Source: Oscillospiraceae bacterium
Lineage (GTDB): Bacteria > Bacillota > Clostridia > Oscillospirales > CAG-272
DNA: 34,979 nt
NCBI GenBank assembly: GCA_015063895.1
Contig: SVTG01000020.1
Coordinates: forward strand, 1-34,979
Direction: 5' to 3'
Shown here: piece by piece, positions 162 to 23,213 of the stretch
Position numbering within the stretch: position 1 is the first letter of the stretch
How the letters are laid out: the number at the start of each line of letters is the position of its first letter
Position numbers and translations under genes: made by a program
Notes under the pieces: model-generated
What the model saw: only the letters and a program-made list of their open reading frames with translations
Database searches by the model: none
Told to the model about the DNA's origin: nothing

Positions 162-196
162 AAAAAAAGAACGAAGCATCCGCTTCGTTCTTTTTT
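162..196. terminator. Intrinsic terminator, bidirectional
   Basis: Stem GAACGAAGC (169-177) pairs with GCTTCGTTC (182-190) around the loop ATCC. It is flanked by seven A on the left and six T on the right, so it can work on either strand. It could end the minus-strand lipoprotein transcript (stop at 349) or a gene left of the window. It abuts hairpin array 1. Confidence 0.75.
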
Positions 197-3179: not shown

Positions 3180-3256
3180 CTACCCGTGGCACAGCTGGAT
3201 AGCGCGCGAGACTCCGACTCTCGAGGTCGCAGGTTCGAATCCTGTCGGGTAGGCCA
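3180..3256 (+). tRNA. tRNA-Arg(CCG)
   Basis: Acceptor CTACCCG (3180-3186) pairs with CGGGTAG (3246-3252), followed by discriminator G and encoded CCA (3254-3256). The anticodon stem CGAGA/TCTCG encloses CTCCGAC, giving anticodon CCG for CGG codons. The T-arm is GCAGG-TTCGAAT-CCTGT. Confidence 0.93.
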
Positions 3257-3260
3257 AAAA

Positions 3261-3292
3261 CGACAAATTTCGACAGAAATTTGTCGTTTTTT
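3261..3292 (+). terminator. tRNA-Arg terminator
   Basis: An 11-bp perfect stem CGACAAATTTC/GAAATTTGTCG (3261-3271, 3276-3286) with loop GACA, followed by six T. It starts five bases after the CCA end. Confidence 0.85.
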
Positions 3293-3295
3293 ATT

Positions 3296-3470
3296 CAAGC
3301 CGCAGGCTTGGTATGGAATCACGCGTTAGCGTGTATGGTATCGCCGTAGGCGTATGGCATCACCAAAGGTGCATTTTTCTGCGGCTTGATTCCATACGAT
3401 TGCTTTGCAATCAATTCCATACCGCAACAAGTTGCGGATTCCATGCACGGCTCCGCCGTGATTGAGTACG
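3296..3470. repeat. Hairpin array 2 (GTATGGAATC word)
   Basis: Uses the same word as array 1. Forward copies lie at 3311-3320, 3334-3342 (TATGGTATC) and 3352-3361; reverse-complement copies lie at 3388-3397, 3413-3422 and 3437-3446. Mini-hairpins between them are CAAGCC-GCA-GGCTTG (3296-3310), CACGC-GTTA-GCGTG (3320-3333), CGCC-GTA-GGCG (3342-3352), CACC-AAA-GGTG (3361-3371), GATTGC-TTT-GCAATC (3398-3412), CGCAAC-AA-GTTGCG (3423-3436) and ACGGC-TCC-GCCGT (3447-3459). The left-end bases CAAGCCGCAG also pair with CTGCGGCTTG at the centre (3379-3388). The array starts right after the tRNA-Arg terminator. No gene overlaps it. Confidence 0.88.
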
Positions 3471-3549
3471 CGCGAGTTCAAATCCATACTGAAAAACGAA
3501 AAATATCTTTTTTATCGCCCCTTCGTAAAAAAGAAAAGCACTTCCCACA

Positions 3550-3575
3550 GCGTACCTGCCATAGAGCAGGTACGC
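3550..3575. repeat. Isolated 10-bp perfect hairpin
   Basis: GCGTACCTGC (3550-3559) and GCAGGTACGC (3566-3575) around a six-base loop. It lies between arrays 2 and 3 without a T-run, so it is not an obvious terminator. The 3471-3549 stretch before it shows nothing else. Confidence 0.6.
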
Positions 3576-3599
3576 AACGAAATTTGCCTTTGCGGGCAA

Positions 3600-3753
3600 G
3601 TGAAATCGCTTCGCGGTGAAATATTTGCTTCGCAAATGTGAAATGTTCGCTATGCGAACATGGGCAAATTTCATTTCACATCGAGCAAAGCGAGATATTT
3701 CACAATGTGCAATAGCACATTATTTCACGTTTTGCGAAAGCAAAACATTTCAC
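3600..3753. repeat. Hairpin array 3 (GTGAAAT word)
   Basis: Same design as arrays 1 and 2 but a different word. GTGAAAT occurs at 3600-3606, 3616-3622 and 3638-3644, then its reverse complement ATTTCAC at 3673-3679, 3697-3703, 3722-3728 and 3747-3753. Hairpins between them: CGC-TTC-GCG, ATTTGC-TTC-GCAAAT, GTTCGC-TAT-GCGAAC, a degenerate one at 3680-3696, AATGTGC-AATA-GCACATT and GTTTTGC-GAAA-GCAAAAC. A further hairpin with one wobble pair spans about 3757-3778. No coding signal. Confidence 0.88.
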
Positions 3754-3791
3754 TACATGCGTTTGTGACCACAAATGCAGTGCTTGTCAAG

Positions 3792-3830
3792 AAAAAAGGA
3801 CGAGGAATTTTAACAATTCTTCGTCCTTTT
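3792..3830. terminator. Bidirectional terminator
   Basis: A 12-bp stem GGACGAGGAATT (3798-3809) against AATTCTTCGTCC (3815-3826) with one wobble pair, flanked by A6 and T4. It probably ends the minus-strand transcript that includes the 3908-4400 remnant. Confidence 0.7.
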
Positions 3831-3907
3831 CCTGTCGGTAGGTAGTATTCAATTTGATACTGCTTTATCGCAGGTCCCCCACGAAGTGCTTTTCTTTTTT
3901 CACGTAT

Positions 3908-4400
3908 TTAGTCCTCAACTGCGGCAATACGCGCATCGTGTGCGGCGATCTCCTCATCACTCTTCATACCAGAGCCGTGAGAGTGTGCCTGAATGGTGGG
4001 CGCCTCTCCATTAGGGCCGAAGAAGGGGGTGATATGATCGTTTTCGTATTTTATGCGATCCGCCTCAAGACGGAAGTCGGGAAGGTCATAGGGCACACCG
4101 CGCTCAAGCAAGCTGCGATGACCAAGAATGGCGACCGATGCCATCGTGGTGGCAAAATAAACGTCAAATTCGGGGTTGCGTCCCTCTCGAATACAGTCAA
4201 AAAACTCACGAATGACCAGGAAGTCACCGCCGCCATGACCTGCGTTTTTGATCAGCTGCTCGTCGGGGTCGTTCCAGGAGGAATTATACGTGCTGTTATC
4301 TTCCCTGCCCTCGGGCGTTTCCCACTTATTATAGCGCAGCAGCACCTTTTCACGCTCGCCGCCAAGTGTGGACTTTGCAAGAGTGACAAATACAAAAAGC
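3908..4400 (-). pseudogene. Gfo/Idh/MocA oxidoreductase, C-terminal remnant
   Basis: The frame resembles only the C-terminal half of Gfo/Idh/MocA-family NAD(P)-dependent sugar oxidoreductases. AGHGGGDFLVIREFFDCIREG and the helix VYFATTMASVAILGHRSLLE are the typical tail of the substrate domain, followed by PYDLPDF and a basic/acidic end. Nothing of the N-terminal Rossmann fold (about 200 residues) is present: upstream there are only about 50 bases before the M20 peptidase stop at 4450. The sole in-frame start is a TTG with no ribosome binding site. It is therefore a 5'-deleted pseudogene. The deletion junction is near 4395. No intact copy is seen in the window. Confidence 0.75.
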
Positions 4401-4449
4401 GCCAAAAAGCAAGGCTTGAGGGCGGGTTCGGATTATTCACGCTTGCCTA

Positions 4450-14299: not shown

Positions 14300-17200
14300 T
14301 TATTCTGCAGGAACGGCCTCAACCTTGCCGTTGGCATATGCATCGATGATAGCCTTTTCGCCTGCGCCAAGAGCTGCGTACGCCTCAGCGTCAGCAACGA
14401 TAGCGTCAGCCATCTGCTCTGCGCTCTTAGCATTGGTCTGTGCATCGTATGCACTGTAAACAGTGTCAACAAGCGTTTCGCCTTCGTAAACCTCAATATA
14501 GGAAACAGCTGCGTAAACGCGGGTGTTGCTCTTGAGGTTCACAAGGATACCGCTGAAGGATACGTCGCCCTCACCGCCGTATACAACCGAGTAAACGGCA
14601 GGGATCTTCACGTAAGCGACACCCGAGGTGATCGCTGCGTCAAGTGCTTCGGGCGTGAAGGTCTTAGCCTTTGCTACGTAGTCAGCAGGAGCTACGAGCG
14701 TACCGAACTTCAGGGTCTTGCCGCCTGCGGTGAGTGCTGCAACAACGTCTGCGGATACGGTGGAGCTGAAGCGGATACCGCTGGTCTCGGCTGCTGCCGT
14801 ATCGGCGTAGAGTGCAACTGCACCCGTAACGGATGCGTTCTCGCCGCTTGCCTTGTTCATCGACCATGCCTTGTACTCAAAGCCGCCGAACATTACGATA
14901 GGTGCGTAAGCATCGATCGTGCCGTGGCTCGAGGTGGGCTTAGCGCCGCTGTAAACCACAGGGTTCACAAGGGTTACGCCGTCAAGCACCGTATTGGCGT
15001 TCTCAAAGACGGTGCCCTCATCGCCGCGGGTGATGATCACGGTGTTCTTGAAGCTGGAAACAGCTGCAACGTCGTTGGCGATCAGCAGGCGGGTGTCGAT
15101 CACACAGTTCTCAAAGGTGATCTGTGACGACGCGCTGTTCGTGAACCAGAAGCCGTAGGTTACGGCAGGTGCGCTGAAGGTGGAGTTCTTAATGGTGTAC
15201 TTGGAGCCACCGGTCGCGTAGATCGGGCCGTAGCTATCACCCTTGGTAACGCCCTTGGTATCCTTGAAGGTTGCGCCATCGATGTTGATGGTACAGATCT
15301 TGTTGCCGCCGAACCAGATAAAGCCGCCGTCAAAGACGCCGCTGTAAACGTTGATGGTAGCGCCAAGCTCAGCAACAGCGGATGCGTTGAACATAAAGAT
15401 CTGGTTGTGAGCGCTTGCCTCAACGGTTGCCGTGCCGTCCTTGGTGAACTCGATAAGGTGTGCACCGGGACGTGCGATCTGGAACATATAGCGCTGGTTT
15501 GTATCTCTGTACTCGTCAGCGTTGCCGATGAAGCTACCGCCCGAGATGTAAGCCTTGAAGCCCTTGGTTTCATGTGCCACGGAGTCTTCGGTGTAGGTAG
15601 CGTCCTGGGTCCATCTTGCGTAGATTCTTACGATACCCGTAGCCGTGAAGGTACCGCCGTTGATATACAGCGTGCCCTCGGTCTCATTGGAGCTGTCAGC
15701 CACGTAGAAGATACCGCCGCCGGAATAGGAGGAGGAGGTGTTGTTCTCGGGGATGAGCTTGGTGAAGGTACCGCCGTTTACGGTGGTGGTAGAAGCGCCA
15801 TTATAGTAGTATACGATGATACCGCCGTTACCAAGGGTGAAGGTACCGTCCGTAATGGTAAGAGTACCGCTGTTTACCTCAAGGAGGTTACCGTAGCTAT
15901 CTCTGGTGAAGCTACCGCCGTTAATGGTAAGGGAGCCGCTCTTGAGATGAAGCACCCGGCTCGTAAGGTTGTTCGCGATAAAGGTACCGTTGTTGATAAC
16001 TACCGTACCGCCGTTGACGGTCACGAAGGTGCCCGTGTAGTTAAGGTCTGCCCAGCTGAGGGTAAGGCTTGCGCCCTCGCCCACGATGAAGGGAACGACA
16101 GAGTCAAGCTGCATCGTAAGGTTTACGTTGGGCTTGATATAGGTGTTGTTGGCGTATGCACGCAGGAAGGCTGCGTTTGCAGCGGCAAGGGCGCTTGCCA
16201 GGTCGGTGACCGTATAATTATCGCCATTGATCAGCTCGGCTGCGTTTGCAGCACCGGTCATGGTGAAGCTGGTGTTAGCCCACATTGCTTCGTCTGCGGG
16301 AAGCACGCCGCCCTCACCGATGGTGACGTTAACGCCCGTAGCGTCAAGAGTCGCACCGTCGGCTGCGAGGAACATCTGTGCACCGTCGCGAAGCGTTACG
16401 TTGGTGCCGTTGCCAAGCACTACGGTGGCGGCGCCGCCAAACTTCACGAGGTAGCCTGCGCCTTCACGCACGAAGCTGGTTGCGGTTGCGGTTGCGGGCT
16501 GGCCGTCGTAGTTGGTGTAGGCCGTGCCTGCGGGATAAACGGTAACGGTTGCGTTGGAGGCGTTCTTGATCCAGATAAGACCTGCAGACTTGCGCTGCTC
16601 GTTCTTGAAGTTACCGCCGTAGATATTGATACTACCAGCCTTGATGCCGGCAGTGGTGTAATTGTAGAAAATACCGCACTCGGTGCCGTTGCTGAACTGG
16701 GCCGCAGCGTAGGTGCGCAGGATAGTGAAGTTACCGCCGTAGACGTTCAACGTAGCGCCACCGTTCATACCGTAGCTGTTGATAGCAAAGCCCGCAGCGT
16801 TTGCCTGGCTGGGGTAGTTGTACCAGTTGCCGCCGTAGACGTTCATCGTGCCATTGTGGAGATAAGTCCAACGGTAGCCGACGACGTTGGTGTTAATAAC
16901 GTCAAGCTGATCACCGTAGGCGGTGAAGACTGAACCGCCGGTGTTGGCGATCAGCGTAGAGTTCAGAACCTTGGTGTACGCTGCAGCGGTATAGATGGGG
17001 TTATAATTTTTCACGTCGATATACTCGGTGGGATAGAGCTCAGACTCGGTCTTGAATGAATCTCTGTTATGATCCTTGGACCAGGAAACGAACACGTTAT
17101 CAAAGGTTGCGGTCTTTGCGCCGTAGATAACGAAGGCGTAGGAGCCGTTGCACTGGTATACGTCCATATCCTTGAAGGAAACGGTGGTATTCTCGAAGCA

Positions 17201-19762
17201 GCTCTTCAGCACGTTGCCTTCCAGTACGTCGGTGGTATTCGCGTCCTCGGTATACTTCGTGGAGGTGCCGACCTGGAAGAAGTAGCCGCCGCCGGCCACG
17301 TAGGTACCGCCCTCAATCGTGAGATTAGCGTCATCACCGGTCACCATGACCAGGGGATTAACAACGCCTGCGCGCTCTGCAGCAAAGCTACAGTCGTTCA
17401 GCGTCAGAGAACCGCCCTCGCCCACGGTAAACAGGGTGGAGGCAAAGGTCCTATCAAGGTCGTTGAGAGTCACGCTCATGCCGTTGCTGACCGTGATCAT
17501 GCCCATCGACGTAATGTTGAAGGTCAGGTTTACGCGGGAGGCGCCGATCATAGTGGCAACGTCCTCGTCGTGTGCGTAGCCGTAGTTGCCGGAAACCTCA
17601 AGCAGCTGCCAGAGGAAGTAATCCATTGCCAGCGACTGATACTCGGTCCAGCCACCGTTGAAGGTACCATCGAAGGAATTACCGGTCACCTGGCTGGTGA
17701 AGGCCTCCGTGAGATTCATGGTCAGGCCGATGATCTCGTAATCGTAATCGGTCCAGGGTGCTTCGTTTGCAAAGATCCAGTTCGTGCCGTCCAGCACAAA
17801 CTTGATGCGCTTGAGACTTTCACCCTCACCGCTGTTGCCGATGGTAAGCGTACCCGTGCCGTTTTTAAACTCGCTGGCAGCAGCAAGTGCGGAGCAGCCG
17901 ACAAGCTTGATGGTGGCGCCACCCTCGATGGTAACGGTGCCGACTGCCGTGAAGGCTGCAAGCGTGGGCGCGTTGGCTGCCACGAGCGTTACGCCCTCGG
18001 TGGTGCTTGCACCGTTGACGGGGTGCGTGTAGGCCTTACCGGGTGCGTGGAAGGTGACGCTGGCCTCGGCAACGCCGATGCTGATGATACCGGAGGTTGC
18101 GGTGCCGGAATAGTTCGTAAAGGTGCCGCCGTAAACGTTCAGCGCTCCCAACTTAGCGTAGGTGATGGCTGCAGCAGTGGCGTGGTTGCCGGGCAAGCCC
18201 ATGGCAAAGTCACCGCCGTAAATATTGATGGGCATAATACCCTGCACGTCGATACCCTTGCAGTTGACCTGGCCGGGGGAGTTGCGGAAGGTACCGCCGT
18301 AGATGTTGAAGGATGCGCCGGCATTGTTCTGGGTGCCGGAGATCGAAAGCCAACGGTAACCGATAAAGGTACCGTTCATCACGTTGACAGTGGTTTGATT
18401 GTCGCCCGTATGGTAGAAGACGCCGTAGGAACGGCCGCTGTAGATGATACCGCCCTCTACGTTGATGGTGCCGCTTGCGCTGGACATGTAGAAGGGATAG
18501 CAGCCGCTTACTTCATCGTTGTCTTTATTGAATTCAATGTAATAGCCGTTATCGATCGTCGTCGTGCCGGCGGGATCAAGCGTGGTGAGGTCGTTCTCGA
18601 TGTAGGAGAACTGGCCGCCCTTCACGGTAAGGGTGAAATCTTTGCCTGCATACCAACCGAAGATGGCACGCCTAGAGTTGGAGTTGTACACTGCGTAGTT
18701 CACGACCTTTGCATCGTGGATCACAAGATTACCCGTAGCAGTGGCACGCGTGTAGAAGGGGATAGAGAACACTCTGATATCCAGATTCCAAATGTTCATG
18801 TTCAGATTGGCAGCCTTCAGATCAAAGCCCTGAACGGTTTGCGCGTTCGCGCTGGTGGTGGTCACCGTCACGTTGTCGGCCACGCCATACTTGTTGGTGC
18901 CGGTCTGGGTACCGATATCAACAGGGCCGGTCATATCACCGCCAAGCACTGCCACGCGGGTGGTGGTGGTAATGGTGGTATCACCGTCGATCTTCAGACC
19001 TCTCATACCGGCGCCGGTGTAGATACCGTCGCCGTTCAGCTTGAGGTTACCGCCGTGGAAGGCAAATGCTACCTTGCTGCAAAGGCGGAAGCTGTCGCTG
19101 CCGGCGCTGATCATGGTACCCTTGTTCTCGCCGCTGCCAAGGTAGATCTCGATATCTACGTCGTTGTCGGTGTTGTTGGGGAACCAGACATAGTGGGCCG
19201 CAACCGAGATGTTGGTCTTGCTACCCGTGATCTGGATAGATACGCCGCCGAGCGCATAGGCCTGTTCGGTGGGGGTGCCCTCCACGTCCACCGTTCTCTT
19301 CAACTCGATGGCGCGGAAGAAGCGTGAAGCTGCCGTAACAACGACGTCGTTGGCAACGAAGGTCACGCCCGTAGCCGTGTTAGCAAACAGATGCTCACTC
19401 GAAGCGTTGATCGTCAGATCGTCAACGGTGAGGTTGGCACCGAAGGCAACGCTGGGGACGTTAAGGTCACCCGTGGCGTTGAACGTAACGGTGTTGCCAT
19501 TACCCTTGATGGTAAGGGCCTTGTCAACCGTTACTGCGTTTTCGGTAGTGTCTTTAAGCAGGTAGATAGTATCACCTGCAGCTGCTTCAGCGATAGCGTC
19601 GGCAAGCGTTGCAGCGTAACCCTTACTGGTTTCGCCGGTCTTGACCTGCCAAGCGTTTTCGCCCTGTTCTGCATCAAGCGCTGCGGAGGATACAAGCATA
19701 GTGGCAAACGCCAAAACGCAGATCATCGCAATAAGAAGCAGAACCTTGACTTGCTTTTTCAT
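14300..19762 (-). CDS. Giant secreted beta-helix surface protein
   Basis: 1,820 residues. Signal peptide MKKQVKVLLLIAMICVLAFA with cleavage near SSA (about 27). Then a pectate-lyase-like right-handed beta-helix: IYLLKDTTENAVTVDKALTI at the start and many turns of the type NVYGGTF, INIYGGDF, LTINGGSF and TITDGTF. At least two long modules are related (18510-18020 and 16995-16515), both containing GYRW, NVYGG/NIYGG turns and an AYT end. The last 180 or so residues are a separate domain (GIRFSSTVSADVV, FGTLVAP, VYAAVSYIEV), a tail I associate with secreted clostridial proteins. No LPXTG motif, membrane helix or SLH domain is seen, so attachment is unclear. The ATG at 19762 follows AAAGGAG. Long plus-strand open frames opposite it are compositional shadows. 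Confidence 0.85.
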   Translation of the reverse strand: MKKQVKVLLLIAMICVLAFATMLVSSAALDAEQGENAWQVKTGETSKGYAATLADAIAEAAAGDTIYLLKDTTENAVTVDKALTIKGNGNTVTFNATGDLNVPSVAFGANLTVDDLTINASSEHLFANTATGVTFVANDVVVTAASRFFRAIELKRTVDVEGTPTEQAYALGGVSIQITGSKTNISVAAHYVWFPNNTDNDVDIEIYLGSGENKGTMISAGSDSFRLCSKVAFAFHGGNLKLNGDGIYTGAGMRGLKIDGDTTITTTTRVAVLGGDMTGPVDIGTQTGTNKYGVADNVTVTTTSANAQTVQGFDLKAANLNMNIWNLDIRVFSIPFYTRATATGNLVIHDAKVVNYAVYNSNSRRAIFGWYAGKDFTLTVKGGQFSYIENDLTTLDPAGTTTIDNGYYIEFNKDNDEVSGCYPFYMSSASGTINVEGGIIYSGRSYGVFYHTGDNQTTVNVMNGTFIGYRWLSISGTQNNAGASFNIYGGTFRNSPGQVNCKGIDVQGIMPINIYGGDFAMGLPGNHATAAAITYAKLGALNVYGGTFTNYSGTATSGIISIGVAEASVTFHAPGKAYTHPVNGASTTEGVTLVAANAPTLAAFTAVGTVTIEGGATIKLVGCSALAAASEFKNGTGTLTIGNSGEGESLKRIKFVLDGTNWIFANEAPWTDYDYEIIGLTMNLTEAFTSQVTGNSFDGTFNGGWTEYQSLAMDYFLWQLLEVSGNYGYAHDEDVATMIGASRVNLTFNITSMGMITVSNGMSVTLNDLDRTFASTLFTVGEGGSLTLNDCSFAAERAGVVNPLVMVTGDDANLTIEGGTYVAGGGYFFQVGTSTKYTEDANTTDVLEGNVLKSCFENTTVSFKDMDVYQCNGSYAFVIYGAKTATFDNVFVSWSKDHNRDSFKTESELYPTEYIDVKNYNPIYTAAAYTKVLNSTLIANTGGSVFTAYGDQLDVINTNVVGYRWTYLHNGTMNVYGGNWYNYPSQANAAGFAINSYGMNGGATLNVYGGNFTILRTYAAAQFSNGTECGIFYNYTTAGIKAGSINIYGGNFKNEQRKSAGLIWIKNASNATVTVYPAGTAYTNYDGQPATATATSFVREGAGYLVKFGGAATVVLGNGTNVTLRDGAQMFLAADGATLDATGVNVTIGEGGVLPADEAMWANTSFTMTGAANAAELINGDNYTVTDLASALAAANAAFLRAYANNTYIKPNVNLTMQLDSVVPFIVGEGASLTLSWADLNYTGTFVTVNGGTVVINNGTFIANNLTSRVLHLKSGSLTINGGSFTRDSYGNLLEVNSGTLTITDGTFTLGNGGIIVYYYNGASTTTVNGGTFTKLIPENNTSSSYSGGGIFYVADSSNETEGTLYINGGTFTATGIVRIYARWTQDATYTEDSVAHETKGFKAYISGGSFIGNADEYRDTNQRYMFQIARPGAHLIEFTKDGTATVEASAHNQIFMFNASAVAELGATINVYSGVFDGGFIWFGGNKICTINIDGATFKDTKGVTKGDSYGPIYATGGSKYTIKNSTFSAPAVTYGFWFTNSASSQITFENCVIDTRLLIANDVAAVSSFKNTVIITRGDEGTVFENANTVLDGVTLVNPVVYSGAKPTSSHGTIDAYAPIVMFGGFEYKAWSMNKASGENASVTGAVALYADTAAAETSGIRFSSTVSADVVAALTAGGKTLKFGTLVAPADYVAKAKTFTPEALDAAITSGVAYVKIPAVYSVVYGGEGDVSFSGILVNLKSNTRVYAAVSYIEVYEGETLVDTVYSAYDAQTNAKSAEQMADAIVADAEAYAALGAGEKAIIDAYANGKVEAVPAE

Positions 19763-19857
19763 AAGTTTTTCTCCTTTTGAAAATTTTTTTTTTGCAAAGC
19801 ATCTTGCGCCTGCAGGCTCGGCGGTGCCCTTGTGCAACAAGACAAATTTACAAGGTC

Positions 19858-22327: not shown

Positions 22328-22878
22328 TGAATTACACCGCAGATATGCCCACCAACGAATTGCCAAAAAGAAAGCCCACTCGATCGCACAAAATCGATTA
22401 CAGCCGTGAGGGTGTGTATTTTATCACGATTTGCACCAAGGACAAAAAGCACACCCTTTCTCACATCGTAGGGGACGGCGCCCTCGACGTCCCGCGAGTG
22501 TGCCTCACATCAATCGGTGAAGTCGTCAACGCACACATTCTGCGCACCGCAGAAAAAATGAGGCTTACCATTGACCGTTACGTCATTATGCCCAACCACA
22601 TACATCTGTTGTTGTATATAAATGAAAACGGGACGTCGAGGGCGCCGTCCCCTACAAGCGATAATTTTTATACCAATGCCCTTATTCCACGTTTTGTTTC
22701 CACCTTTAAGCGTTTTGCAAACAAGGAGGCGGGGCAATCGCTGTTCCAACGCTCCTTTCACGACCACGTGGTGCGCGACAGGCACGATTACCGAAAAATT
22801 GCGGCTTATATTGAAAATAATCCCCTGCTTTGGCGTGAGGATTGCTTTTTCGGCGAGGGGGATACTGAAACGCCGTGA
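22327..22878 (+). CDS. REP-associated tyrosine transposase (RAYT)
   Basis: 183 residues, complete. A Y1-transposase (IS200-like) fold: DYSREGVYFITICT near the N-terminus, the HUH motif MPNHIHLLL (His91, His93), and FHDHVVRDRHDYRKIAAYIE with the probable catalytic Tyr155, then NNPLLW typical of RAYTs. RAYTs nick single-stranded DNA at REP palindromes and are usually single-copy, vertically inherited genes. Two perfect inverted copies of the local REP-like sequence lie inside this frame (22468-22494 and 22629-22655), encoding residues 48-57 and 101-110; the second adds a loop just after the HUH block. The ATG overlaps the DUF512 stop (TAATG) and has no ribosome binding site of its own. An alternative start is the ATG at 22345. 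Confidence 0.87.
   Translation: MNYTADMPTNELPKRKPTRSHKIDYSREGVYFITICTKDKKHTLSHIVGDGALDVPRVCLTSIGEVVNAHILRTAEKMRLTIDRYVIMPNHIHLLLYINENGTSRAPSPTSDNFYTNALIPRFVSTFKRFANKEAGQSLFQRSFHDHVVRDRHDYRKIAAYIENNPLLWREDCFFGEGDTETP
22468..22494 (+). repeat. REP-like element inside the RAYT gene, copy 1
   Basis: 27 nt beginning GTAGGGGACGGCGCC and ending CGACGTCCCG. It is the exact reverse complement of copy 2 at 22629-22655, and identical over 26 nt to the free copy at 23055-23080. Read in frame as VGDGALDVPR. Confidence 0.92.
22629..22655 (-). repeat. REP-like element inside the RAYT gene, copy 2
   Basis: Inverted relative to copy 1 with 27 of 27 matches. The mRNA can therefore form a 27-bp stem with a 134-nt loop that contains the codons for the HUH motif. 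Read in frame as GTSRAPSPT. Confidence 0.92.
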
Positions 22879-23213
22879 TCGCCGCGAAGCGGTGCGAACA
22901 GTTTGCGGGCAGCCAAAGTCCGCCCCTACAAGTTAGCGCTACGTTATGCGTGGAATTTTTGAGGGTGCGAACACATCTCGGACAGTCGAGAGCGCCTATC
23001 CCCTACGGGTTTGATGCAAAAAGTGCGCAGCTTTAAAAAAACACGCGTTTCCTTGTAGGGGACGGCGCCCTCGACGTCCCATTATTCCGTGTAAACATAT
23101 CGCAAAAACCAACACAAAGCAAACATTTAACCCCCATACGCCATAAAAAAGAACATTCGTGCGGTGTGGCGTGCGCCCCCGCACAAAGCGATACAGTCAA
23201 GGAGGTAGAAAGC
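22879..23213. repeat. Gene-free gap with three REP-like copies
   Basis: A worn copy near 22900-22935 (AAAGTCCGCCCCTACAAG), a diverged inverted copy at 22979-23006 (ends TATCCCCTAC) and an intact forward copy at 23055-23080. A GC-rich hairpin GTGCGG/CCGCAC lies at about 23160-23185. No gene and no strong promoter are seen before der. Confidence 0.75.

Follow-up and report, generated by a model that had tools for sequence, protein, structure and literature searches.

The window analyzed here, a stretch of 34,979 nt (contig SVTG01000020.1, Oscillospiraceae bacterium assembly GCA_015063895.1; the own genome, G000), carries a 175-bp block in which a short constant word alternates with perfect mini-hairpins (array 2, positions 3296–3470), which raises the question of what kind of entity such a block represents. 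The original prediction, made from the letters alone, offered three options: a branched structured RNA, a cruciform DNA site, or a non-autonomous element. Array 2 probably belongs, as a copy without a gene, to a mobile DNA element family that is related to the intervening sequences (IVSs) of rRNA genes and resides at transcription terminators, and array 2 itself would be mobile on the strength of its relatives. This reading draws on the repeat copies, their attachment to terminators, their linkage to genes of the Pfam family PF05635, the joint evolution of word and protein, the polarity of the hairpin loops, and three empty sites of a sister sub-family that includes Rfam Gut-1.

Architecture of array 2 and its family

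Reading of the sequence bears out the core of the original prediction, namely a constant word that alternates with mini-hairpins and switches strand in the middle of the block. The word, of approximately 10 nt and with the consensus GTATGG-N-ATC (the GTAT word), lies on the + strand as GTATGGAATC (3311–3320), GTATGGTATC (3333–3342), and GTATGGCATC (3352–3361), and beyond the midpoint as the reverse complement, in the forms GATTCCATAC (3388–3397), AATTCCATAC (3413–3422), and GATTCCATGC (3437–3446), the last two each being one base off the word. The perfect hairpins between or after the words are, in order, ACGC-GTTA-GCGT, GCC-GTA-GGC, ACC-AAA-GGT, GATTGC-TTT-GCAATC, CGCAAC-AA-GTTGCG, and ACGGC-TCC-GCCGT. 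The block had been described as a palindrome throughout, which holds for the order of the words but not for the individual bases, since hairpins in one arm do not complement those in the other; similarly, every hairpin differs within array 2, as claimed, but hairpins recur between arrays (GCCGTAGGC 17 times, ACGCGTTAGCGT 13 times). None of 200 dinucleotide shuffles was as stable as array 2 folded as DNA (z = -5.6), and none of 200 shuffles as stable as its RNA fold (z = -4.7). Array 2 itself has no gene, and it is not alone in the window, with further elements at 1–161 and 3549–3877.

The own genome (1.86 Mb, 36 contigs) holds 40 matches to the GTAT word, as against five to the reversed pattern, and about ten GTAT arrays, array 2 among them, when the overlapping contig ends C8/C25 and C21/C35 are each taken as one place. 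Of the single word matches (C9, C11, C12, C28, and C31), the three viewed, in C9, C11, and C12, have no array around them, and contigs C8, C9, C17, C25, C27, and C35 start or stop at arrays. The arrays follow a common plan, consisting of a terminator-like hairpin, a start hairpin, two to three units of word plus hairpin, an apex, and two to three units in the opposite orientation, although some have extra units and others follow the plan incompletely. In 46 of 63 arrays, the apex complements the start hairpin of the same array over at least 7 nt, compared with 5 of 63 when start and apex are drawn from different arrays; start hairpin and apex change together within the family.

Beyond this genome, a word search of a public genome collection returned 108 contig stretches holding three such words, these being pattern matches and not each necessarily a real array. 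The original prediction had proposed searching related genomes for the word spaced by self-complementary inserts, and such inserts were found: among 234 distinct inter-word segments from the 108 stretches, 102 have stems of at least 5 bp (approximately one expected from shuffled letters) and 195 have stems of at least 3 bp (about 36 expected). At least 80 of the stretches can be placed by title, mostly in assemblies of Clostridia, Clostridiales, or Oscillospiraceae, with ruminant or other animal gut sites common and a few outside those groups (e.g., Chloroflexales, Obscuribacterales, Desulforadius).

An array also stands behind this tRNA-Arg in the sister species G012, with GTATATCATC as its word and with different hairpins and a different terminator; the tRNA and the tail align with the array 2 locus, while terminator and words differ, so that the pair represents either one array in which all words changed or a replacement. 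The gain or loss of hairpins at matching loci, a further check that had been proposed, was seen between these two species, L024/L261 and its G012 counterpart L258 differing by the presence of one whole unit. Because hairpins recur between arrays and a whole unit is present or absent between species, a mechanism that makes new palindromes, as had been suggested, is not needed for the variation that was traced, although such a mechanism may exist.

Terminator attachment and the Gut-1-type neighbor

Of 70 distinct arrays, 59 start no more than 14 nt past the end of a perfect hairpin with a stem of 7 bp or longer, in most cases with A and T tracts, compared with 7 of 61 control windows farther upstream. 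Array 2 lies just past such a hairpin and not in its loop.

The element 80 bp from array 2 (3549–3877) has the same grammar with another word, and its 3575–3649 segment is by score a member of Rfam Gut-1 (RF01706). The statement that no named repeat class has this grammar is therefore not fully accurate, although array 2 itself has no match to Gut-1, only 3575–3649 scoring in the window. Gut-1 was published as a likely or candidate noncoding RNA (ncRNA) of the "human gut only" (in the relevant passage of PMC2864571), whereas here it constitutes one end of a 329-bp inserted DNA element. There are 21 Gut-1 matches in the own genome, some being the two arms of one element; in each copy the word is nearly constant inside the element and reverse-complemented in the second arm, and further words are GTGAAGT, GTGATAT, GCGATAT, and ATGAAAT. 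Across 59 genomes (own plus relatives), 41 have Gut-1 matches at E ≤ 0.001 and 35 above the family cut-off. In a separate observation, 12 of 14 loci viewed in G031 (L309–L320) are direct GTGAAAT-type arrays without a clear reverse arm, several of which adjoin a recurring G/C-rich block.

Inverted arms with A and T tracts enclose eight of the ten Gut-1-type copies tested in the own genome. In G012, the window element is absent and a plain terminator-like hairpin stands in its place (flanking gene part 92% identical), and two more empty sites were found (L038/L399 and L042/L401); the comparison matched 5 of 10 pieces plus the window, and these three are the clean empty sites. At the other G012 places, L402 retains an apparent part of an element, L400 aligns on one side only, and L403 has 71% identity. 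A scan for flanking inverted repeats round 95 PF05635 genes gave one clean complete case, L292 (genome G053), a gene-bearing copy with an apparent second open frame between 16-bp terminator arms; other long arms were those of L358 (17 bp) and L349 (13 bp). A 5-bp target duplication is suggestive: it fits the window element, L035, and L036, and, by eye, also L042 (GCTAT) and L292 (ACAAA).

Linkage to PF05635 genes and the level of recognition

Six of the 35 GTAT arrays listed for the genus (L024 cut by the contig end, L258 truncated, and L230 with the gene 237 nt away) have, at their B end or close to it, a gene of PF05635 (23S_rRNA_IVP, E 3.1e-18; also TIGR02436), about 115 codons long in the GTAT sub-family, for which the solved relative found is 2RLD only (five chains). 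PF05635 occurs in 40 of the 59 genomes, and both genes of the own genome (C31, C35) are preceded by an array. Among 106 PF05635 matches, 95 loci were fetched, 92 of them with more than 200 nt upstream; a two-orientation word array lies upstream in 58 of the 92 genes, whereas only 2 of 89 have one downstream and none of 270 shuffles gave one. The test counts one exact 7-mer at least five times with both orientations present, and thus scores words and not hairpins; two of the 58 positive loci have low-complexity words. Presence of Gut-1 and of PF05635 is associated over the 59 genomes (both in 36, neither in 14; Fisher p = 1.7e-6; Spearman of counts 0.82).

When mapped on a tree of 56 PF05635 proteins, 14 hand-merged words require 17 changes (minimum 13), compared with a shuffled mean of 41.2, none of 200 shuffles being as low. 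Word and protein evolve together, and since the word follows the protein tree, this is the behavior expected of a protein and its recognition sequence. In an alignment of 81 PF05635 proteins, several polar residues (Q, N, E, D, K, K, E, E) show little or no variation and could form an active or binding site. The family is said to resemble the Avd protein of diversity-generating retroelements (DGRs) in a passage of PMC10053308, and no paper linking PF05635 to hairpin arrays or terminators was found in the open-access papers searched.

As read by eye, a promoter-like sequence lies between the array and the PF05635 gene, the array being upstream on the gene strand. This position, together with the way in which the word tracks the protein tree, would suit an array that is an operator or leader, i.e., an autoregulatory binding site of the gene that follows, with solitary arrays as remnants. 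However, 29 of the 35 listed GTAT arrays have no adjoining PF05635 gene, and three sites show precise insertion of a Gut-1-type copy; we consider it unlikely that this accounts for the arrays, although a regulatory role in addition to mobility may exist.

The loops of the mini-hairpins bear on whether recognition takes place on DNA or RNA. With one strand read, GTAT arrays have G-N-A or G-N-N-A loops in 27 of 67 A-arm hairpins (T-N-C in 3), and T-N-C or T-N-N-C loops in 29 of 56 B-arm hairpins (G-N-A in none). Arrays of other words beside PF05635 genes are the mirror of this (A arm: T..C 47, G..A 4, other 32; B arm: G..A 40, T..C 3, other 34), as counted with 9 of 58 arrays omitted whose words do not switch strand exactly once. 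The loop type thus belongs to the strand of the word. For a single transcript, the two arms would be expected to share a preferred loop type, and therefore recognition at the DNA level, as a cruciform or single strand, is favored, if unproven; the polarity could also be explained by one arm descending from an inverted copy of the other. G-N-A triloops form very stable DNA mini-hairpins.

These counts also bear on the published view of Gut-1, under which the arrays would be structured ncRNAs, multi-branched transcripts whose stems covary through selection on RNA structure. The stable RNA fold of array 2 is compatible with such a role, Rfam classes Gut-1 as an sRNA, and in part of its source Gut-1 was proposed as an expressed ncRNA (PMC2864571). 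Nevertheless, the loop type flips between arms on one strand, both in GTAT arrays and in those beside PF05635 genes, and the arrays are multi-copy, lie after or inside terminator-like hairpins, and are absent at three sister sites, making an ncRNA improbable. Of the three options first offered, the non-autonomous element is thus supported by many copies, gene-bearing relatives, and three empty sites of the sister sub-family; the cruciform site is favored insofar as loop polarity points to DNA-level structure, and the same polarity disfavors the branched RNA.

In the mobile-element reading, a full element would have a terminator-like hairpin as its landing site, and its body would run from units in one orientation, each a short word with a mini-hairpin, through an apex to units in the opposite orientation; gene-bearing copies would add a promoter-like sequence, a gene for the PF05635 four-helix-bundle protein, and sometimes a small gene that is possible cargo. 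The PF05635 protein would recognize these units of word and hairpin on DNA, either as a cruciform or as a single strand, would effect or guide insertion at terminator hairpins, and would serve gene-less copies such as array 2 in trans. Stems may vary if shape and word, rather than stem sequence, are what is recognized.

Several observations weigh against this model. Of the 92 PF05635 genes, 34 fall below the array threshold, although in at least three of them, L281, L290, and L292 (score 3), an array is visible by eye, the exact 7-mer missing degenerate arrays; five genomes have Gut-1 but no PF05635 match, and four the reverse. In a wider sample of the phylum, with PF05635 in 57 of 299 genomes, none of the 30 loci fetched reaches the array threshold. 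In other genera, arms of at least 10 bp flank 6 of 22 tested Gut-1 loci, and not all are terminator-like. L038, L039, L041, and L048 share no 5-mer at their arms, and a shared 5-mer occurs at 5 of 14 flanked sites (L031 and L190 ambiguous), compared with 21 of 182 mismatched pairs; for a miniature inverted-repeat transposable element of a DDE transposon, which would have terminal inverted repeats and a target-site duplication of fixed length, these counts, the cases of L042 and L292, and the own-genome sites without a shared 5-mer give a mixed picture. The GTAT family itself yielded no empty site. Neither a recombinase nor a nuclease was identified, integrase and DDE families lying outside the searches, and we know of no recombinase or nuclease activity of PF05635.

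A mutational origin, in which replication template switching repeatedly makes and repairs palindromes near terminators, would fit the retention of pairing while stems differ, as well as the long perfect hairpins of the window, one of which runs into a tRNA-Gln end (2586–2650). It leaves unexplained the words, the order of units, the gene linkage, the word–protein co-evolution, and the recurrence of hairpins across loci, and is very improbable.

Known systems, wider PF05635 kin, and other window features

The IVSs of 23S rRNA share with the mobile elements proposed here the protein family found in gene-bearing relatives and insertion in a hairpin, seen for 8 of 10 tested Gut-1-type copies of the own genome, whereas array 2 lies just after a hairpin. 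IVSs reside in a 23S rRNA gene, from which RNase III excises them. They are called selfish, with mobility put forward solely as a hypothesis, in a passage of PMC4990558. The site here is a transcription terminator, not rRNA, and, unlike IVSs, the arrays have words and hairpins in two orientations, abundant gene-less copies, and sometimes a possible-cargo gene downstream. The window has no rRNA match, array 2 being flanked by tRNA and protein genes; array 2 likewise has no Gut-1 score above the gathering cut-off.

Repetitive extragenic palindromic (REP) sequences and REP doublets forming hairpins (REPINs) are, according to part of PMC3733652, short palindromes, often in inverted pairs and many per genome, with a GTAG or CGTC tetranucleotide at the hairpin foot as their defining mark. 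Array 2 has no GTAG or CGTC foot and no association with a Y1 gene (REP-associated tyrosine transposase). Array 2 is not classed as IVS, REP, or Gut-1, since for each of them it was found on testing to lack a defining feature. Either a repeat of REP/REPIN type driven by a Y1 transposase or a retro-element mobilized by a reverse transcriptase would share with the arrays their short palindromic form, inverted pairing, many copies, and intergenic setting, and one Y1 gene is present in the window. However, among the 59 genomes, RVT_1 occurs in 15, G000 not included, and Y1 in 29, without association (Y1 p = 0.40, RVT_1 p = 0.52); genomes with 48, 35, 33, 32, and 27 Gut-1 matches have neither a Y1_Tnp nor an RVT_1 match; and the arrays lack the GTAG foot, the GTAG repeats at the Y1 gene being another sequence. 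Such an origin is accordingly most unlikely, and the lack of RVT_1 in the own genome also argues against a group II intron or DGR. The Y1 frame (PF01797, 22327–22878) and its GTAG-tagged inverted repeats (22468–22494, 22629–22655, 23055–23080) are a REP-like system whose sequence is other than that of the arrays.

Clustered regularly interspaced short palindromic repeats (CRISPR) were rejected on the self-complementarity of most inter-word segments, CRISPR spacers being acquired and non-palindromic, cas genes lying outside the searches made. Group IIC introns target stem-loops, integron attC sites consist of them, and integron cassettes are small genes. The small genes behind some copies recall such cassettes; unlike group IIC introns, no reverse transcriptase is needed here, and integrases were outside the searches made. 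To our knowledge, no protein or word array is associated with the double-hairpin elements of fungal mitochondria. These are suggested, in part of PMC5910586, to be mobile mini-hairpins, and belong to organelle DNA, unlike the arrays.

Among the 58 array-preceded PF05635 genes, 36 have a next open frame on the same strand within reach. Pfam searches of 30 of these frames identified GNAT acetyltransferases (L296, L300, L335, L343), a methyltransferase (L353), a nucleotidyltransferase (L293), NUDIX (L392), barstar (L350), peptidase S51 (L340), PHP (L385), DUF2691 (L346), DUF2716 (L365), and ParB (L379), the last an ordinary chromosomal gene; three matches were weak, below the curated cut-off (L282, L345, L371), and the other 15 frames had no family. 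We infer that some of these genes could be cargo, the right end being mapped for L292 only.

Among the 30 wider-phylum loci (L404–L433), direct repeats of 6–9 nt stand just before the gene in 22 and also after it in 9, each locus being judged against 200 letter shuffles. Four of the genes lie in 23S rRNA (L421, L427, L432, L433), and one lies inside an RNase P RNA gene (L430, G106:C1:403844-404161), the Rfam RNaseP_bact_a match spanning it, which parallels rRNA IVSs; all five have the direct repeats upstream. Because direct repeats precede these wider-phylum genes, rRNA and RNase P copies included, word repeats may be general to PF05635 elements, with mini-hairpin arrays an elaboration in this order. 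More tentatively, at a probability we place somewhat short of even, PF05635 (IVP/S23p) might be the specificity or mobility protein of a widespread, unrecognized class of DNA elements whose homing sites form hairpins (terminators, rRNA, RNase P RNA), rRNA IVSs being the copies that ended up in rRNA and the arrays of words and mini-hairpins an end-recognition code. PF05635 proteins and rRNA IVSs have been known for decades without known function or demonstrated movement, and the multi-copy families, matched words, empty sites, and gene-less derivatives make both IVS mobility and the role of the protein directly testable. That an Rfam "RNA" is recast here as belonging to a DNA element is a caution for covariation-based RNA discovery, and the arrays add a terminator-dwelling kind of element with possible accessory genes, at which assemblies may break.

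Table 1. Positions of array 2, its neighbors, and their parts in the window.
Feature	Position	Strand	Basis or remark
Array 1, same word family, cut by contig end	1..161	-	
Terminator-like hairpin at A end of array 1	163..196	-	sequence
tRNA-Arg(CCG); array 2 attaches at its 3' terminator-like hairpin	3180..3256	+	ARAGORN, Rfam
Terminator-like perfect hairpin with A and T tracts, stem 16, directly 5' of array 2	3256..3291	+	sequence; row L020
Start hairpin of array 2, CAAGCC-GCA-GGCTTG	3296..3310	+	sequence
A arm of array 2: three words GTATGG-N-ATC, a different mini-hairpin after each	3311..3370	+	
Apex of array 2; CTGCGGCTT in its 3' part is reverse-complementary to AAGCCGCAG of the start hairpin	3371..3387	+	sequence
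B arm of array 2: reverse-complement words and three more mini-hairpins	3388..3469	-	
Left arm of terminator-like hairpin holding Gut-1-type element	3527..3544	+	18 nt, 100%
Candidate 5-bp duplication CCCAC flanking Gut-1-type element	3544-3548 and 3878-3882		
Gut-1-type element, word GTGAAAT/ATTTCAC, in loop of terminator-like hairpin, 329 bp	3549..3877	+	absent in G012
Match to Rfam RF01706 Gut-1	3575..3649	+	66.7 bits (gathering 50)
Right arm of terminator-like hairpin holding Gut-1-type element	3883..3900	+	

Three other features of the window stand apart from the arrays. The inverted repeat at 2586–2650 is perfect over 30 bp with a 5-nt spacer, and one arm reaches into the tRNA-Gln gene at its 3' end, so that the terminator looks as though it had received a copy of that end. 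An interspersed repeat of approximately 97 bp (4353–4449), which has more copies in the own genome and genus, adjoins a short gene fragment. An open frame of 1846 aa lies amid many short repeats (14300–19840) and perhaps encodes a repetitive protein.
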